From Cyanobium sp. CACIAM 14 (GTDB lineage: Bacteria; Cyanobacteriota; Cyanobacteriia; PCC-6307; Cyanobiaceae): a DNA stretch of 64,000 nucleotides. The position numbers and the translations under genes are program-made. Position 1 is the stretch's first letter. Every line of letters begins with the position of its first letter. The notes under the pieces were generated by a model. It was not told where the DNA came from. It saw only the letters and a list, made by a program, of their open reading frames with translations, and made no database searches. Of this stretch, positions 27,446 through 33,855 are shown one piece after another. Where the stretch lies: NCBI GenBank assembly GCA_000708525.1, contig JMRP01000004.1, positions 1-64,000 on the forward strand. Reading direction: 5' to 3'.

Positions 27446-28872
27446 GGCATCCCAGGGGGGCACTGAGCTCTCTGGTTCAGCTGGTGGCCCTGGGGGGGCT
27501 GGTGGGGGCGGCCTGCTGGCCTCTCAACCGCATCGACGACATTCAGGATCGACTGCTCTCCGTCCTGCCGGCCTTCCGCAGCGGCCCCTGGAGTGCCGCG
27601 GCTCTGCTGCTGGTCCTCGCACCGATGGCCGTGCTGCCACTGCTGCTCTGGCTGCAACAGGGAACGCTCCGCCGCGGTGCCGGATCGGGCATCCCCCAGG
27701 TGATGCTGTGCCTGGACGACCCCCACCGGGCCTCCCGCCTGCTCACTGCCCGTCCCACCCTGGAGCGGGTGGGGCTCTGGAGTCTGGCCAGCCTGGCCCT
27801 TCTCCCCCTGGGCCGGGAAGGGCCGGTGGTGGCGGTCGGCGCCGCGGTCGGTCAGGCCGTGCTGCGGCGCTGGCCCAGCCTGCTGCGCCGCGCCAGCCGC
27901 CGCCATCTGCTGGCCGGAGCCGCGGGAGCCGGCCTGGCCGGTGGCTTCAACACCCCCTTGATGGGGATGCTGTTCATGGTGGAGGAACTCACCGGCAGCT
28001 TTCACATGCGGCTCGTCTGGCCGGCGCTGCTGATGGCCAGTGGAGCCTCCCTGGTGAGCCGGCTGGGGGGACAACCGATGTTCGCTCTGGGGCTCAACGC
28101 CAGTCCGGTGGGGGAGGCCGAGCAGCTGCTCTGGGCGATCCCCATCGGCCTGGGAGGCGGGCTGCTCGGGGGTGGCTTCGCCAGGCTGCTGGTGCTGTCC
28201 ACGGGCCGGATGGCGCCTCTGGCACGCCGCCATCCCCTGGCCATCGGACTCGTCCTGGGGGTTGGGCTCACGGCGCTGGCCCTGATCACCGGCGGAGCCA
28301 GTGGCGGGGATGGCGAGACTCTGATGCGCCGGATCCTCGATCAGGAGGGCGATACGCCGATCGACTGGACCTGGCTGGTGCTGCTGGGTTCGAGGCTGGT
28401 GGCACCGCTGCTGCCCCTTTCCGCCGGGGTCCCCGGGGGGTTGATCGACCCGGCCTTCACACTCGGGGGTGTCTTTGGTGCGGGGGTGCTGAGTTCGGTC
28501 TCCGGAGATCCCCACCTGGGGCTGGCCCTGGGCATGGCAGCCGGTCTGGCGGGCGCCACCCAGCTGCCGGTGATGACCATCGCCTTCTCCGTGCGCATGG
28601 CCGGCGATCAGCAGCTCCTGGCCGGTCTGGTGGCTACCGCGGTGATCGCCGCCTACACGGGCCGTCTGGTGCAACGACGGCCCGTTTACCACGCCCTGGC
28701 CGACCTCATGGCGCAGGCCGGCTCAGAGGGCGCCCCGGCGGTAGAAGAGGATGAAGATCACGGCCGGGCCGGCCAGGGTGATCAGGGCCAGGGCGCCGAA
28801 ATTGGAGATGAGATGGAAGTCGATACCCATGATGCGGCAGCTGGCGAACGGGAGGATCGGCTGGGAGTGTAA
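27442..28872 (+). CDS. ClC family chloride channel / transporter
   Basis: The 476-residue polytopic membrane protein carries the ClC signatures GAGSGIPQ (near residue 75), GREGPVV (near 125, including the gating glutamate) and GGLIDPAF (near 330, a variant of GxFxP). It should move chloride, possibly in exchange for protons, across the plasma or thylakoid membrane. It starts on the recJ stop codon. The last ~50 residues form a very acidic, Gly/Asp/Glu-rich tail that is antisense to psb30. Confidence 0.9.
28723..28830 (-). CDS. psb30: Photosystem II reaction center protein Psb30 (Ycf12)
   Basis: A 35-residue single-span protein starts [16 protein letters not shown] and ends [10 protein letters not shown]. 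This is the Psb30/Ycf12 sequence of picocyanobacteria: one membrane helix followed by the basic RRG end. It sits at the periphery of photosystem II near cytochrome b559. The gene lies entirely on the opposite strand of the ClC tail. It is divergent from the YkgJ gene. Confidence 0.93.
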
Positions 28873-29783: not shown

Positions 29784-30137
29784 ATGCAGCTCGCCCTTCT
29801 CGCCTCCACCTTCGCCACCGTCTTCCTGGCGGAACTCGGTGACAAGACCCAGCTGGCCATCGTCAGCATCAGCGGCACCTCCAGCCGGCCCGGGGCCGTC
29901 TTCGCCGGCAGCGCCTGCGCCCTGGTCCTGGCCAGCCTGGTGGGGGCCGGGGCCGGGGGATCGCTCTCCTCCGTGATTCCCACCGATGCTCTCCAGCTGG
30001 CGGCGGCCGCCGGCTTCCTCATTCTCGGCACCCGTCTGATCGTGCTCTCCCGGCAGGGGGAGAACAGCCCCGCCACGGTGGCCCAGGCCGTCAGCCCCGA
30101 TGCCGCCGGGGAGGCCGCCGACACCCCCGCTCCCTAG
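29784..30137 (+). CDS. UPF0016 half-transporter (TMEM165/GDT1 family), second of a pair
   Basis: The 117-residue protein again carries FLAELGDKTQLAI, three hydrophobic segments and an Ala/Pro-rich tail. The two neighbouring genes differ in sequence outside the motif, so they would make a heteromeric transporter with opposite topology. 77 noncoding bases separate them. Mn2+ (or Ca2+) exchange is inferred from family knowledge. Confidence 0.92.
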   Translation: MQLALLASTFATVFLAELGDKTQLAIVSISGTSSRPGAVFAGSACALVLASLVGAGAGGSLSSVIPTDALQLAAAAGFLILGTRLIVLSRQGENSPATVAQAVSPDAAGEAADTPAP

Positions 30138-30246
30138 AGTCCCCGGACCGGCCATCAGCCTGGGGGCCGCCGTCTCCCCGGGCCGGTTCGGACCACACCG
30201 CCACCGCGCTGCCACGCCGGCGCCACCCTCTGCGCATTCCCATCTG

Positions 30247-32547
30247 ATGAAGTTCACGGTCGCCGATCTGCTCGATCACCTCTCGCCGACCGACCCGGTG
30301 GCCGTCGCCAAACTCGAGAAGTCCCTCGGGCTCACCACCAAGACCTGCAAGCAGCAGCTGCGGATCGGACTGGAGGCCCTGCGCCGGCTGGGTCTGGTGG
30401 AGGAGGACGGCGAGGGTCTCCGCGCGCTGGAGTCGCCCGAACTGATCCCCGCCCGCCTCCGCTGCTCCAGCAAGGGCTTCTGCTTCGCTCTCCGGGAGGA
30501 CGGCGGCGAGGACATCTACATCCGCGACCACCAGCTCAACCACGCCTGGAACGGCGACAGGGTCCTGGTGCGGATCACCCGGGAAGGGGGCCGTCGTCGC
30601 TCGCCGGAAGGGGGGGTGCAGTGCATCCTCGAACGCCAGACCCCCAGCCTGCTGGCCCAGGTGGAGCGGCAGGAGGGCCAGCTCGTCGCGGTACCCCTCG
30701 ATGACCGGCTGCTGACCACCGTGGTCCTGCCGGAATCGGATGCCACCTATCTGGAGCAGGCGGACGACTCGGTGGTGGAGGTGAAGATCGACCGCTTCCC
30801 CGTCGCCCAGTTCGGCCCGACCGGGCATGTGGCCCGCAGCCTGCCCGTGCACGGCGGGGAGGAGGCCGACACCGACCTGCTGCTGGCGAAGCACCGTCTG
30901 CACGAACGTCCCGCCTGTCCCCGGGCCACTCTCAAGCAGCCTCTCGCCAAGGGGCGCGCCGATCTCACCGCCCTGCCGACCCTTCTGCTGGAGGTCTGGG
31001 AGAGCGGGGATGCGCCCGTTCTCCCCGCCGTCTCCCTCGAGCTCCGGGAGGGAGGCTGGCGGCTGTGGGTGCATGCTCCGGCCGTGGCGGAGCGCATCGG
31101 CATGGGCACCAGCCTGGACACCTGGCTGCGGGAGCAGGGGGAAGCCATCTGTCTTGGGCGCCGGTGGCTGTCTCTGCTCCCGCCGGCCCTTACCAAGGCC
31201 TGCGGCTTCCGGCCCGGTGAGACCCGGGAAGCCCTTTCCGTCTGCCTGGATCTGGATGCGGCGGGACAGCTGGAGCACTTCCGGTTCAGCCTCAGCCTGG
31301 TCAGTCCCGATGCCCGCGTGGGCCGTGACGCCATGGCCGCCCTGGCCGAGCGCAAGCCCAAGGCCCGCACCGTTCCCGCCGCCCTGAAGCCCCTCAAGGA
31401 TCACCTGCCCCTGCTGGAGCAGCTGGTCAATCTGAGTGGCCTGCTGCGTCAGCGGCGACTGGCGTCGGGGTCCATCGATCTCGATCTGCCGGTCCCCCCG
31501 ATGGACGCTCTCGGCGACCTGCGGATCCCCGCGCCGGATGCCGCCCATCAAGGCTGGCTGGTGGAACTGCCCGCCGACGCTCCGGTGGCGATCCTGCGGG
31601 AATGCGTTCTGGTGGCCGAGCGGGCCCTGGGCCGCCACCTGCTGGCCCTGGAGCTGCCCGGTCTCTTCGCCCTCAATCCGGCCCCCGAAGCCACCGACAT
31701 CAACGATGTCGCCAAGGGAGCTCTGGCGCTCGAGATTCCGATGGAACTCAGCGCCGACGGCAACGCTAGCGCCGCCGAACTGGCAGCCGTCTTCGCCGCC
31801 ACCGATCGGGGGCGCCCCCTCCAGCAGCAGCTGCGGGAAGCACTGAAGCCTGTCCAGCTCTCCGCGAGCGCCGGCCCCAATGCGGTGGCCGGGGAGGAGA
31901 TCGCCTTCGCTCCCTGGTGCTGTCCCGCTCTCCACTATGCGGACCTCTGGAACCAGCAGCTGCTGGTGAGCCTGCTCGTCGATGGCAAGGACAGGCCGAG
32001 CGTGCGTCACAAGATCAGTGCCGATCTGGCCAGCGATGCCTGCCACGGCAGCACCGACTGGCCCCTGCTCACCCCCAGCCAGCTGGGCCCTTACCAGCAG
32101 GCACTGGGACATGGTCTGGCCCAGCGTCTCAACGGCCGCAGTCGCTTCCTCCAGGAATTCCAGGCCGATGCCCTGGCAATGGCCCAGGCCCGTCACACCG
32201 AGTCCCTGGTGGGCCGGATCCTCCCCGGAGTGATCAGCGGGGTGCAGAGCTACGGCTTCTTCGTGGAGGTGCCCCCTTCCCAAGTGGAGGGTCTGGTGCA
32301 CGTCAGCTCCCTGAAGGACGACTGGTACGAGTACCGCTCGCGGCAGAACCGGCTGGTGGGGCGCAAGTTCCGCCGCACCTACATGGTGGGAGACGCTGTG
32401 GAGGTGGAGATCCAGAAGGTGGATGCGCTGCGTCATCAGATCGATCTGGCGGTGATCCAGCCGGAGACCTTCGAACGGGCCGGTGAGGAGATTCCCGGCA
32501 GCGACGATGGCGAGGAGGCCCCGGCCCTGACGGCGGCCGAGCCCTGA
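30247..32547 (+). CDS. RNB-family (RNase II/R, Zam-like) protein lacking catalytic aspartates
   Basis: The 766-residue protein has an N-terminal winged-helix-like region (1-60), a cold-shock-like OB domain (76-115, GFCFALREDGGEDIYI), a long RNB-type core and a C-terminal S1 domain (655-740). The RNB signature region, normally ending in DARDFDDAV, here reads GDAPVLPAV at residues 254-262, so the metal-binding Asp cluster is gone, although the following GGWRLWVHA is intact. It probably binds RNA without RNB-type cleavage. It is followed 8 bases later by ubiX. Confidence 0.85.
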   Translation: MKFTVADLLDHLSPTDPVAVAKLEKSLGLTTKTCKQQLRIGLEALRRLGLVEEDGEGLRALESPELIPARLRCSSKGFCFALREDGGEDIYIRDHQLNHAWNGDRVLVRITREGGRRRSPEGGVQCILERQTPSLLAQVERQEGQLVAVPLDDRLLTTVVLPESDATYLEQADDSVVEVKIDRFPVAQFGPTGHVARSLPVHGGEEADTDLLLAKHRLHERPACPRATLKQPLAKGRADLTALPTLLLEVWESGDAPVLPAVSLELREGGWRLWVHAPAVAERIGMGTSLDTWLREQGEAICLGRRWLSLLPPALTKACGFRPGETREALSVCLDLDAAGQLEHFRFSLSLVSPDARVGRDAMAALAERKPKARTVPAALKPLKDHLPLLEQLVNLSGLLRQRRLASGSIDLDLPVPPMDALGDLRIPAPDAAHQGWLVELPADAPVAILRECVLVAERALGRHLLALELPGLFALNPAPEATDINDVAKGALALEIPMELSADGNASAAELAAVFAATDRGRPLQQQLREALKPVQLSASAGPNAVAGEEIAFAPWCCPALHYADLWNQQLLVSLLVDGKDRPSVRHKISADLASDACHGSTDWPLLTPSQLGPYQQALGHGLAQRLNGRSRFLQEFQADALAMAQARHTESLVGRILPGVISGVQSYGFFVEVPPSQVEGLVHVSSLKDDWYEYRSRQNRLVGRKFRRTYMVGDAVEVEIQKVDALRHQIDLAVIQPETFERAGEEIPGSDDGEEAPALTAAEP

Positions 32548-32555
32548 GCGACGGG

Positions 32556-33206
32556 ATGCCGCCAGCGTCGCTTCCCGTGGTCCTGGCGGTGTCCGGTGCC
32601 TCCGCCCAGCCCCTGGCCGAGAGGGCCCTGCAGCTGCTGCTGGAGGCGGATCTGCCCGTGGAGATGGTCACCAGCCGCGGGGCCATCGGGGTGTGGCAGG
32701 CGGAGATGGGTCTGCGGGTGCCCTCCGAACCGGAAGCCCAGGCCAGCTTCTGGCGCCGGCGCACCGGCTGCGCCGCCGGCCGTCTGAACTGTCACCGCTG
32801 GAACGATCAGGCCGCCGCGATCGCCAGCGGCAGCTATCCCACCCGTGGGATGGTCATCCTGCCGGCCAGCATGGGCACCGTGGGTCGGATCGCCTCCGGT
32901 GTGGCCCTGGACCTGATCGAACGGGCCGCCGATGTCCATCTCAAGGAGGGCAGGCCCCTGGTGATCGCGCCGCGGGAGCTGCCCTGGAACCTGGTGCATC
33001 TGCGCAATCTCACCCGCCTGGCCGAGGCGGGGGCGCGCATCGCTCCGCCGGTGCCTGCCTGGTACCACCAGCCCACCACGATCGCCGAGATGGTGGACTT
33101 CCTGGTGATCCGTGTCTTCGACAGCCTCGGGCTCCAACTGGGCTCCCTGAACCGTTGGCAGGGGCCGACGGCGTGCTCCCCAGCCGCCGGACCCGCCACA
33201 CCCTGA
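32556..33206 (+). CDS. ubiX: Flavin prenyltransferase UbiX
   Basis: The 216-residue flavoprotein has the expected AVSGASAQPLAERALQLL FMN-binding start, PASMGTVGRIASGVA, and the late VIAPRELPWNLVHLRNL segment. It makes prenylated FMN, the cofactor of UbiD-type decarboxylases used in plastoquinone-like synthesis. The normal starting Gly-Ala-Ser pattern is retained. The C-terminus carries an additional short Pro/Ala tail. Confidence 0.95.
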   Translation: MPPASLPVVLAVSGASAQPLAERALQLLLEADLPVEMVTSRGAIGVWQAEMGLRVPSEPEAQASFWRRRTGCAAGRLNCHRWNDQAAAIASGSYPTRGMVILPASMGTVGRIASGVALDLIERAADVHLKEGRPLVIAPRELPWNLVHLRNLTRLAEAGARIAPPVPAWYHQPTTIAEMVDFLVIRVFDSLGLQLGSLNRWQGPTACSPAAGPATP

Positions 33207-33216
33207 CCCACCCACC

Positions 33217-33777
33217 GTGCTGCAACGCCTGCTGCTGCTGCCCCTGCTGTCGCCGCTGCTGCTGACGCTGCTGGTGGCCGCCCTCAATCCCCGTCCGTCG
33301 GTCGTGCTGCGGTTGCTCACCTGGCAGACCCCGTCCCTTCCCATCGGTCTCTGGATGGCCATGGCCGCGGGCGGTGGGGCAGCTCTCTCGGGGGGTGCCA
33401 CGGCCCTGGCTCTGGGCCAGGGAATGCGGCAACCGCTGCGCCGCACAGTCCGCCGCCGTGAGGTGTGGGACATCGGCGGCTCCGCGGAGGAATGGTCTTC
33501 GCCCCGGGGTGGCGGTCCCGAGCCGGAATCCCGTGAAGCCCCTTCCAGCCATCGCGCAGGCCCGGGGGCCGCGGCCGCTCCCGCCGCCGCCGGCCCCACC
33601 CGGGCCGCCGGCGATCCGGCCCCCACCGTGTCGGTTCCCTACCGGGTGCTGCACCGTCCCGATGCCGCCGCTGGCGCGCCCTTCCGACCCGCTGCGCCGT
33701 CCCGGCCGTCCCCGGCGGCCCCGGCCATGGCGAACGACGCGGGCGACTGGGGCGAGGCCGAGAGCGAGGAGTGGTGA
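33217..33777 (+). CDS. Small membrane protein with long disordered tail
   Basis: The 186-residue protein starts at GTG 10 bases after ubiX. Two hydrophobic segments (about 3-22 and 42-66) form a hairpin. The rest (75-186) is Pro/Ala/Gly/Arg-rich and ends in acidic residues. The layout resembles small LapA-like or assembly-related membrane proteins, but no domain is recognised. Co-transcription with ubiX is likely from spacing. Confidence 0.65.
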   Translation: MLQRLLLLPLLSPLLLTLLVAALNPRPSVVLRLLTWQTPSLPIGLWMAMAAGGGAALSGGATALALGQGMRQPLRRTVRRREVWDIGGSAEEWSSPRGGGPEPESREAPSSHRAGPGAAAAPAAAGPTRAAGDPAPTVSVPYRVLHRPDAAAGAPFRPAAPSRPSPAAPAMANDAGDWGEAESEEW

Positions 33778-33855
33778 GGGTCGTTTCCGCGGACACCTGC
33801 CTCCTGCCGGCGCTGACTAAAGTTGCCCCACCCACGCGCTCCAGGGCCCGCACCG

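Follow-up and report, generated by a model that had tools for sequence, protein, structure and literature searches.

What does a cyanobacterial protein do that has the domain order of an exoribonuclease, but in whose metal site the aspartates have been replaced by proline and leucine? The question is raised by a gene of Cyanobium sp. CACIAM 14, which an earlier note, made from the DNA letters alone, had read as an RNB-family pseudoenzyme that is perhaps Zam-like. The window is the whole stretch of DNA analysed, i.e., 64,000 nucleotides of contig JMRP01000004.1 (positions 1 to 64,000), and its genome of origin (G000) is 3.21 Mb in size and 96.6% complete. The gene and its domains are as follows.

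30247..32547, plus strand: zam, predicted RNB-family pseudonuclease of 766 aa (open reading frame, Pfam, predicted structure, fold matches)
Within zam: winged-helix-like N-terminus, residues ~1–66; CSD1, 67–130; CSD2, ~131–235; RNB, 236–577; S1, 653–737
32203..32457, plus strand: S1 domain (residues 653–737), the second most conserved domain after CSD1

The frame is open throughout, and its start at 30247 is supported by K2, F3, V5, and A6, which are common to the relatives, although the M1 of those relatives was chosen by script and the frame of zam stays open upstream to 30100. Pfam matches were obtained for OB_RNB, CSD2, RNB (1.3e-42), and S1, of which the first two overlap at residues 70–129, and there was no Pfam match for an HTH in the protein. 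The winged-helix-like N-terminus and the second OB domain were assigned from the predicted structure together with the full-length match to RNase R, and the boundaries of the winged-helix-like part and of CSD2 are our own, taken from that structure. The minus strand opposite the gene holds a 781-aa open frame (30091–32436), which is in all likelihood a by-product of G+C-rich codon usage. A scan of the locus for promoters and terminators found none, which says little for cyanobacteria.

The AlphaFold2 model, built from 70 sequences, has a mean pLDDT of 87.8 and a pTM of 0.83 and displays the fold and domain order of RNase R and RNase II. RNase R ranked first both in the phmmer search of solved structures (8cdu, 1.2e-39) and by Foldseek and VIA-align (8cdu, Z 36.3 over 613 residues), and by fold it stood above the eukaryotic Dis3L2 and the yeast Ssd1 (7am1, Z 30.3, 608 residues aligned); Ssd1 was absent from the 38 phmmer matches. 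The best NCBIfam score was likewise for the RNase R model, but at 215.8 it remained far under the cut-off of 597.85. With RNase R structures ranking first, the predicted fold appears to be intact while the chemistry is gone. The residues that bear on this chemistry lie in two short stretches.

30991..31029, plus strand: degenerate metal site, residues 249–261, with E249, P257, L259, and P260 in place of four Asp (alignments)
31930..31938, plus strand: codons of L562-H563-Y564, where RNase II has its R500-K/R-Y motif (alignments)

In E. coli RNase II, whose numbering and residue roles follow PMC3293843, the metals are bound by D201, D207, D209, and D210, and the same source describes R500 as the RNA-anchoring arginine and Y253 as the stacking tyrosine. 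The earlier note had located the loss of the metal site in the motif GDAPVLPAV (residues 254–262), between RADL (237–240) and GGWRLWV. This placement holds. In the phmmer alignment against the Deinococcus RNase II chain 2r7d, P257, L259, and P260 pair with aspartates, and a second alignment agrees. The motif does not contain the whole cluster, as the first of the four acids corresponds to E249, outside it. The catalytic loss also reaches beyond what had been claimed: R500 is replaced by L562 and Y253 by C302.

To place these residues in a wider context we compared 198 Zam loci, 119 from the family of the window protein (f1) and 79 others, a set from which ten same-genome repeats, the two window copies (L002 and L033), and the non-Zam loci L015 and L022 had been dropped; a few loci are truncated, and the two f1 sources may have species in common. 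Within f1, Pro occupies position 257 in 114 loci and position 260 in 106, Leu occupies 259 in 110 and 562 in 99, and Cys occupies 302 in 101, while none has Asp or Glu at 257, 259, or 260 or Arg at 562. Because the three replacements of the aspartates recur so widely, sequencing error can be rejected as the source of the lost acids.

A different reading is that the protein is still a nuclease, with the metal held by acids relocated within the same loop, namely E249, E252, and D255. E249 does align with the first aspartate, and position 255 is Asp or Glu in 85 of the 119 family loci. However, only 38 loci have an acid (Asp or Glu) at 249 and only 20 at 252, the Pro, Leu, and Pro at 257, 259, and 260 are themselves conserved, and both R500 and Y253 are gone; we rejected this candidate, which we hold to be highly improbable, on the poor conservation of 249 and 252, even though 255 is often acidic. 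Judged from the sequence, the window protein very probably lacks canonical exonuclease activity, and it is likely, with somewhat less assurance, that it is unable to hold the catalytic metals as active enzymes do and that its function involves no RNA cleavage. A literature search returned nothing on D207N + D209N mutants.

Is the protein then Zam? According to Thomas et al. (2022; PMC9145284), the Zam proteins of cyanobacteria form an RNB clade whose active site is degenerate and never canonical, whose conservation peaks in the OB-fold domains, and in which the cysteines C73 and C79 are invariant. In their account of Synechococcus PCC 7002, these cysteines are redox-active and needed in vivo, the mobility of Zam is redox-dependent, mutants of zam or its cysteines have less phycocyanin and a raised PSI:PSII ratio, zam is dispensable while rnb is not, and the purified protein shows neither nuclease activity nor RNA binding, but it aggregates (PMC9145284). 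The cysteine codons in the window are

30463..30483, plus strand: C73 to C79 in CSD1, the putative redox pair; both Cys present in 193 of the 198 Zam loci

and their residue numbers are identical to those of the published pair, which is missing from the corresponding aligned region of the two E. coli enzymes, RNase R and RNase II, and of the Rnb of the same genome. The pair is incomplete in five loci, L114 (RCC307), L188, and L164, L171, and L172, the last three being all the f18 loci of the set.

At the search threshold, the genome yields two RNB loci and no more. The other one (L001) keeps all four Asp as well as the Tyr (Y253) and the Arg (R500), and is the second, intact RNase II/R that the earlier note had proposed to look for. 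Four lines of evidence together bear out the Zam-like pseudoenzyme: the architecture, in which an RNB domain is combined with S1 and two cold-shock domains (the second OB domain being assigned from the model and from the match to RNase R); C73/C79; the occurrence of one copy alongside an intact RNase II; and the account given in PMC9145284. The gene is almost certainly a zam ortholog and a paralog of RNase R/II, an assignment made by the published description of the PCC 6803 and PCC 7002 proteins, whose sequences were absent from the 80 loci returned. Among these 80, the nearest named relatives were Microcystis elabens FACHB-917 and Cyanobium sp. N.Huapi 1H5 (87% identity). In a tree with an outgroup, the Zam-type loci stand apart from Rnb and RNase R, with a support for the split of only 77. 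A degenerate Zam was already known from the 2022 publication (PMC9145284), and the observation in the earlier note was real and correctly seen. As the loss is lineage-wide and published, annotating zam as a ribonuclease is misleading.

The Zam query matched in 375 of 388 Cyanobacteriia genomes, the weakest of these matches possibly being Rnb. A profile search of four of the 13 misses (G245, G281, G309, and G317) found Rnb-type matches only and no Zam, so that these four may break the published rule of a Zam in each genome searched. The name of one record, a contig titled "MAG: Bifidobacterium breve" (L075), is probably wrong, since the contig carries ubiX downstream of a gene for a Cyanobium-like Zam (71% identity).

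None of the 198 loci keeps all four acids (0/119 and 0/79), and the site has decayed to different degrees. Of the 79 Zams outside f1, seven retain three acids, 33 two, 24 one, and 15 none, where D207 was read as the residue three positions before D210, a reading less sure in f47, f18, and f26 in which the stretch is deleted. Three Asp occur in six Zams (L004, L005, L006, L146, L182, and L186). R500 is kept in 44 of the 79, and an acid at 209, R500, and Y253 are combined in 37. On a quick LG+G4 tree of 106 Zams, computed without the catalytic columns, the minimum number of changes is nine for R500 and four for the acid at 209; the root is weak with the outgroup, so these counts show repeated change rather than its direction. 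Erosion is thus graded, with some Zams keeping three acids and R500, whereas f1 lost three acids and R500 and conserved what replaced them. The grading agrees with the published absence of the canonical site in Zams and adds to it, and the intermediates, from three acids plus R500 through fewer to none, form a natural series for asking at what stage nuclease activity disappeared and which features remained.

An alternative reading is that zam is decaying and its function has gone. The RNB core is indeed the least constrained of the folded domains, and in one genome (G241, C1:735597–737632) zam is apparently split into two open frames of 281 and 475 aa, possibly a pseudogene or a sequencing error. 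Across nine close sequences including the window (36 pairs), however, pN/pS is 0.19 for the whole gene, 0.017 for CSD1, 0.061 for S1, 0.203 for RNB, and 0.735 for the C-terminal tail, values low enough in the domains to indicate that the protein is maintained, and the RNB core is under much weaker constraint than CSD1 and S1. Decay also fits poorly with the matches in most Cyanobacteriia genomes, with the conserved replacement residues, and with the published deletion phenotype in PCC 7002 (PMC9145284). We consider it scarcely credible, and on pN/pS and distribution we rejected zam as a pseudogene.

The five replaced catalytic columns have a mean majority fraction of 0.89 in f1 against an RNB average of 0.64, a value reached by 0.7% of random five-column sets (0.6% with 27 representatives). 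Conservation beyond the RNB average is suggestive, as the statistic ignores relatedness, and would fit, again suggestively, an RNB domain kept as a scaffold or given a new binding role.

From the conservation of CSD1 and S1 it is plausible that the window protein binds RNA. We propose a redox-switched partner mechanism, to which we would give about an even chance, in which CSD1 and S1 contact RNA and/or RNase E, the oxidation of C73/C79 switches this contact, and the RNB core now serves as scaffold; RNA turnover would then follow the photosynthetic redox state. The genome has one gene of the RNase E/G family, the proposed partner of Zam. In Anabaena PCC 7120, Alr1240 ("RNase II") is described as binding RNase E (PMC10989914) and is a Zam according to Thomas et al. 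(PMC9145284); the review nevertheless describes RNase II-like degradation of unstructured RNA by Alr1240 (PMC10989914). If both the review and the identification as Zam are right, some Zams cut RNA. The conflict could be explained if less eroded Zams retain some activity, if Alr1240 has a different identity, or if a contaminant was responsible. The window protein, in which no more than E249 remains and both R500 and Y253 are missing, should be inactive either way.

The main role of Zam might instead be to bind particular mRNAs on the outer surface of the cold-shock domains, in the manner of Ssd1, rather than to control RNase E. This would accord with the fold match to Ssd1, with the concentration of conservation in CSD1 and S1, and with the described relocation of RNA binding to a surface patch in Ssd1 (PMC8934651). 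RNase R nonetheless ranks above Ssd1 by fold, Ssd1 is missing from the sequence matches, and the literature as far as searched yielded no RNA target of Zam. We therefore regard this role as possible, though rather less likely than the redox-switched mechanism.

The next gene downstream is the following.

32556..33206, plus strand: ubiX (flavin prenyltransferase family), 8 bp downstream of zam

It passes the UbiX-family model TIGR00421 (150.5 against 108.9) and has a Pfam Flavoprotein match. Among 80 named f1 loci, ubiX lies directly downstream of zam on the same strand in 76; three of the four without it are at a contig edge, and one (L126) lacks ubiX. The unnamed f1 loci have ubiX after zam in 7 of 9 cases. 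Other neighbours, under the provisional labels recJ, YkgJ-like, UPF0016, acsF, and tldD, tend to be retained in f1 as well; of the 80 loci, recJ is found in 69, the second UPF0016 gene in 77, and acsF in 64. Since neighbours are mostly kept within f1, its synteny alone is uninformative, and only other families discriminate.

We therefore examined 71 loci outside f1 with up to ~4 kb of flank, two of which had too little, leaving 69. ubiX is downstream on the same strand in 47 and absent from 22; 40 of the 71 loci were picked from the better-scoring rows, so 47 of 69 is no unbiased estimate, and among the first 31 loci the count is 16. In 46 of the 47, ubiX lies within 450 bp of the last zam match. 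By comparison, recJ, the YkgJ-like gene, the second UPF0016 gene, the open reading frame at 33823, and acsF were found beside zam in none of the 71 loci and tldD in two, in a test that omits the first UPF0016 gene and the genes at ~27700–28870 and 33217–33777. Of seven window neighbours tested, only ubiX recurs beside zam in many distant cyanobacteria; the loci examined for the pair span L182–L212 and L216–L255. The possible tie to ubiX expression that the earlier note had suggested gains some indirect support from a zam-ubiX order that persists in more distant relatives and from a gap of just 8 bp. Two small genomes of one family (L179 and L180, genus g2) have no ubiX within ~4 kb of zam, and L179 has the longest Zam branch in the outgroup tree.

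UbiX has a role in cyanobacterial plastoquinone synthesis. In bacterial ubiquinone synthesis, UbiX is described as making the flavin-derived cofactor of UbiD (PMC5159609). A conserved zam-ubiX pair would connect the redox control of RNA with quinone-cofactor metabolism in a concrete way. It is tempting, but doubtful, to go further and read the pair as an ancient operon of cyanobacteria in which a dead, redox-sensing RNase is coupled to the prenylated-flavin supply for UbiD-dependent quinone synthesis, with the emptied pocket of the picocyanobacterial proteins and its conserved W251/P257/L259/P260 pattern as a new protein or ligand site. Our literature search found nothing joining zam and ubiX. 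What merits further work is the graded loss together with the conserved pair.

Among known systems, the closest is Zam (named for resistance to acetazolamide) of Synechocystis PCC 6803 and Synechococcus PCC 7002, which shares with the window protein the domain order, C73/C79, and the degenerate site, and which is likewise described as a single copy beside an intact Rnb with a cyanobacterial distribution (PMC9145284). The window family differs in that all 119 loci lack any acid at D207, D209, and D210 as well as R500, while many other cyanobacterial Zams keep some of these. Alr1240, known here by its description, would be a Zam with an RNase E partner like the one proposed, yet it is reported to degrade RNA (PMC10989914). 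RNase R of E. coli (5xgu) and of 8cdu have the same fold and domain order, but the E. coli enzyme retains the four Asp together with the Tyr and the Arg, which the window protein is without. Yeast Ssd1 (7am1) is an RNase II-family pseudonuclease described as having lost catalysis with its cold-shock domains conserved, as in Zam, and catalysis is reported to have been lost repeatedly in related fungal lineages (PMC8934651, PMC8097288). The redox cysteine pair is a feature of Zam that the abstracts of these two papers do not mention for Ssd1. Ssd1 is described as a descendant of the eukaryotic Dis3L2 (PMC8097288), which makes independent origins likely, and by analogy Ssd1 may offer a parallel for Zam, with catalysis lost and RNA binding relocated.
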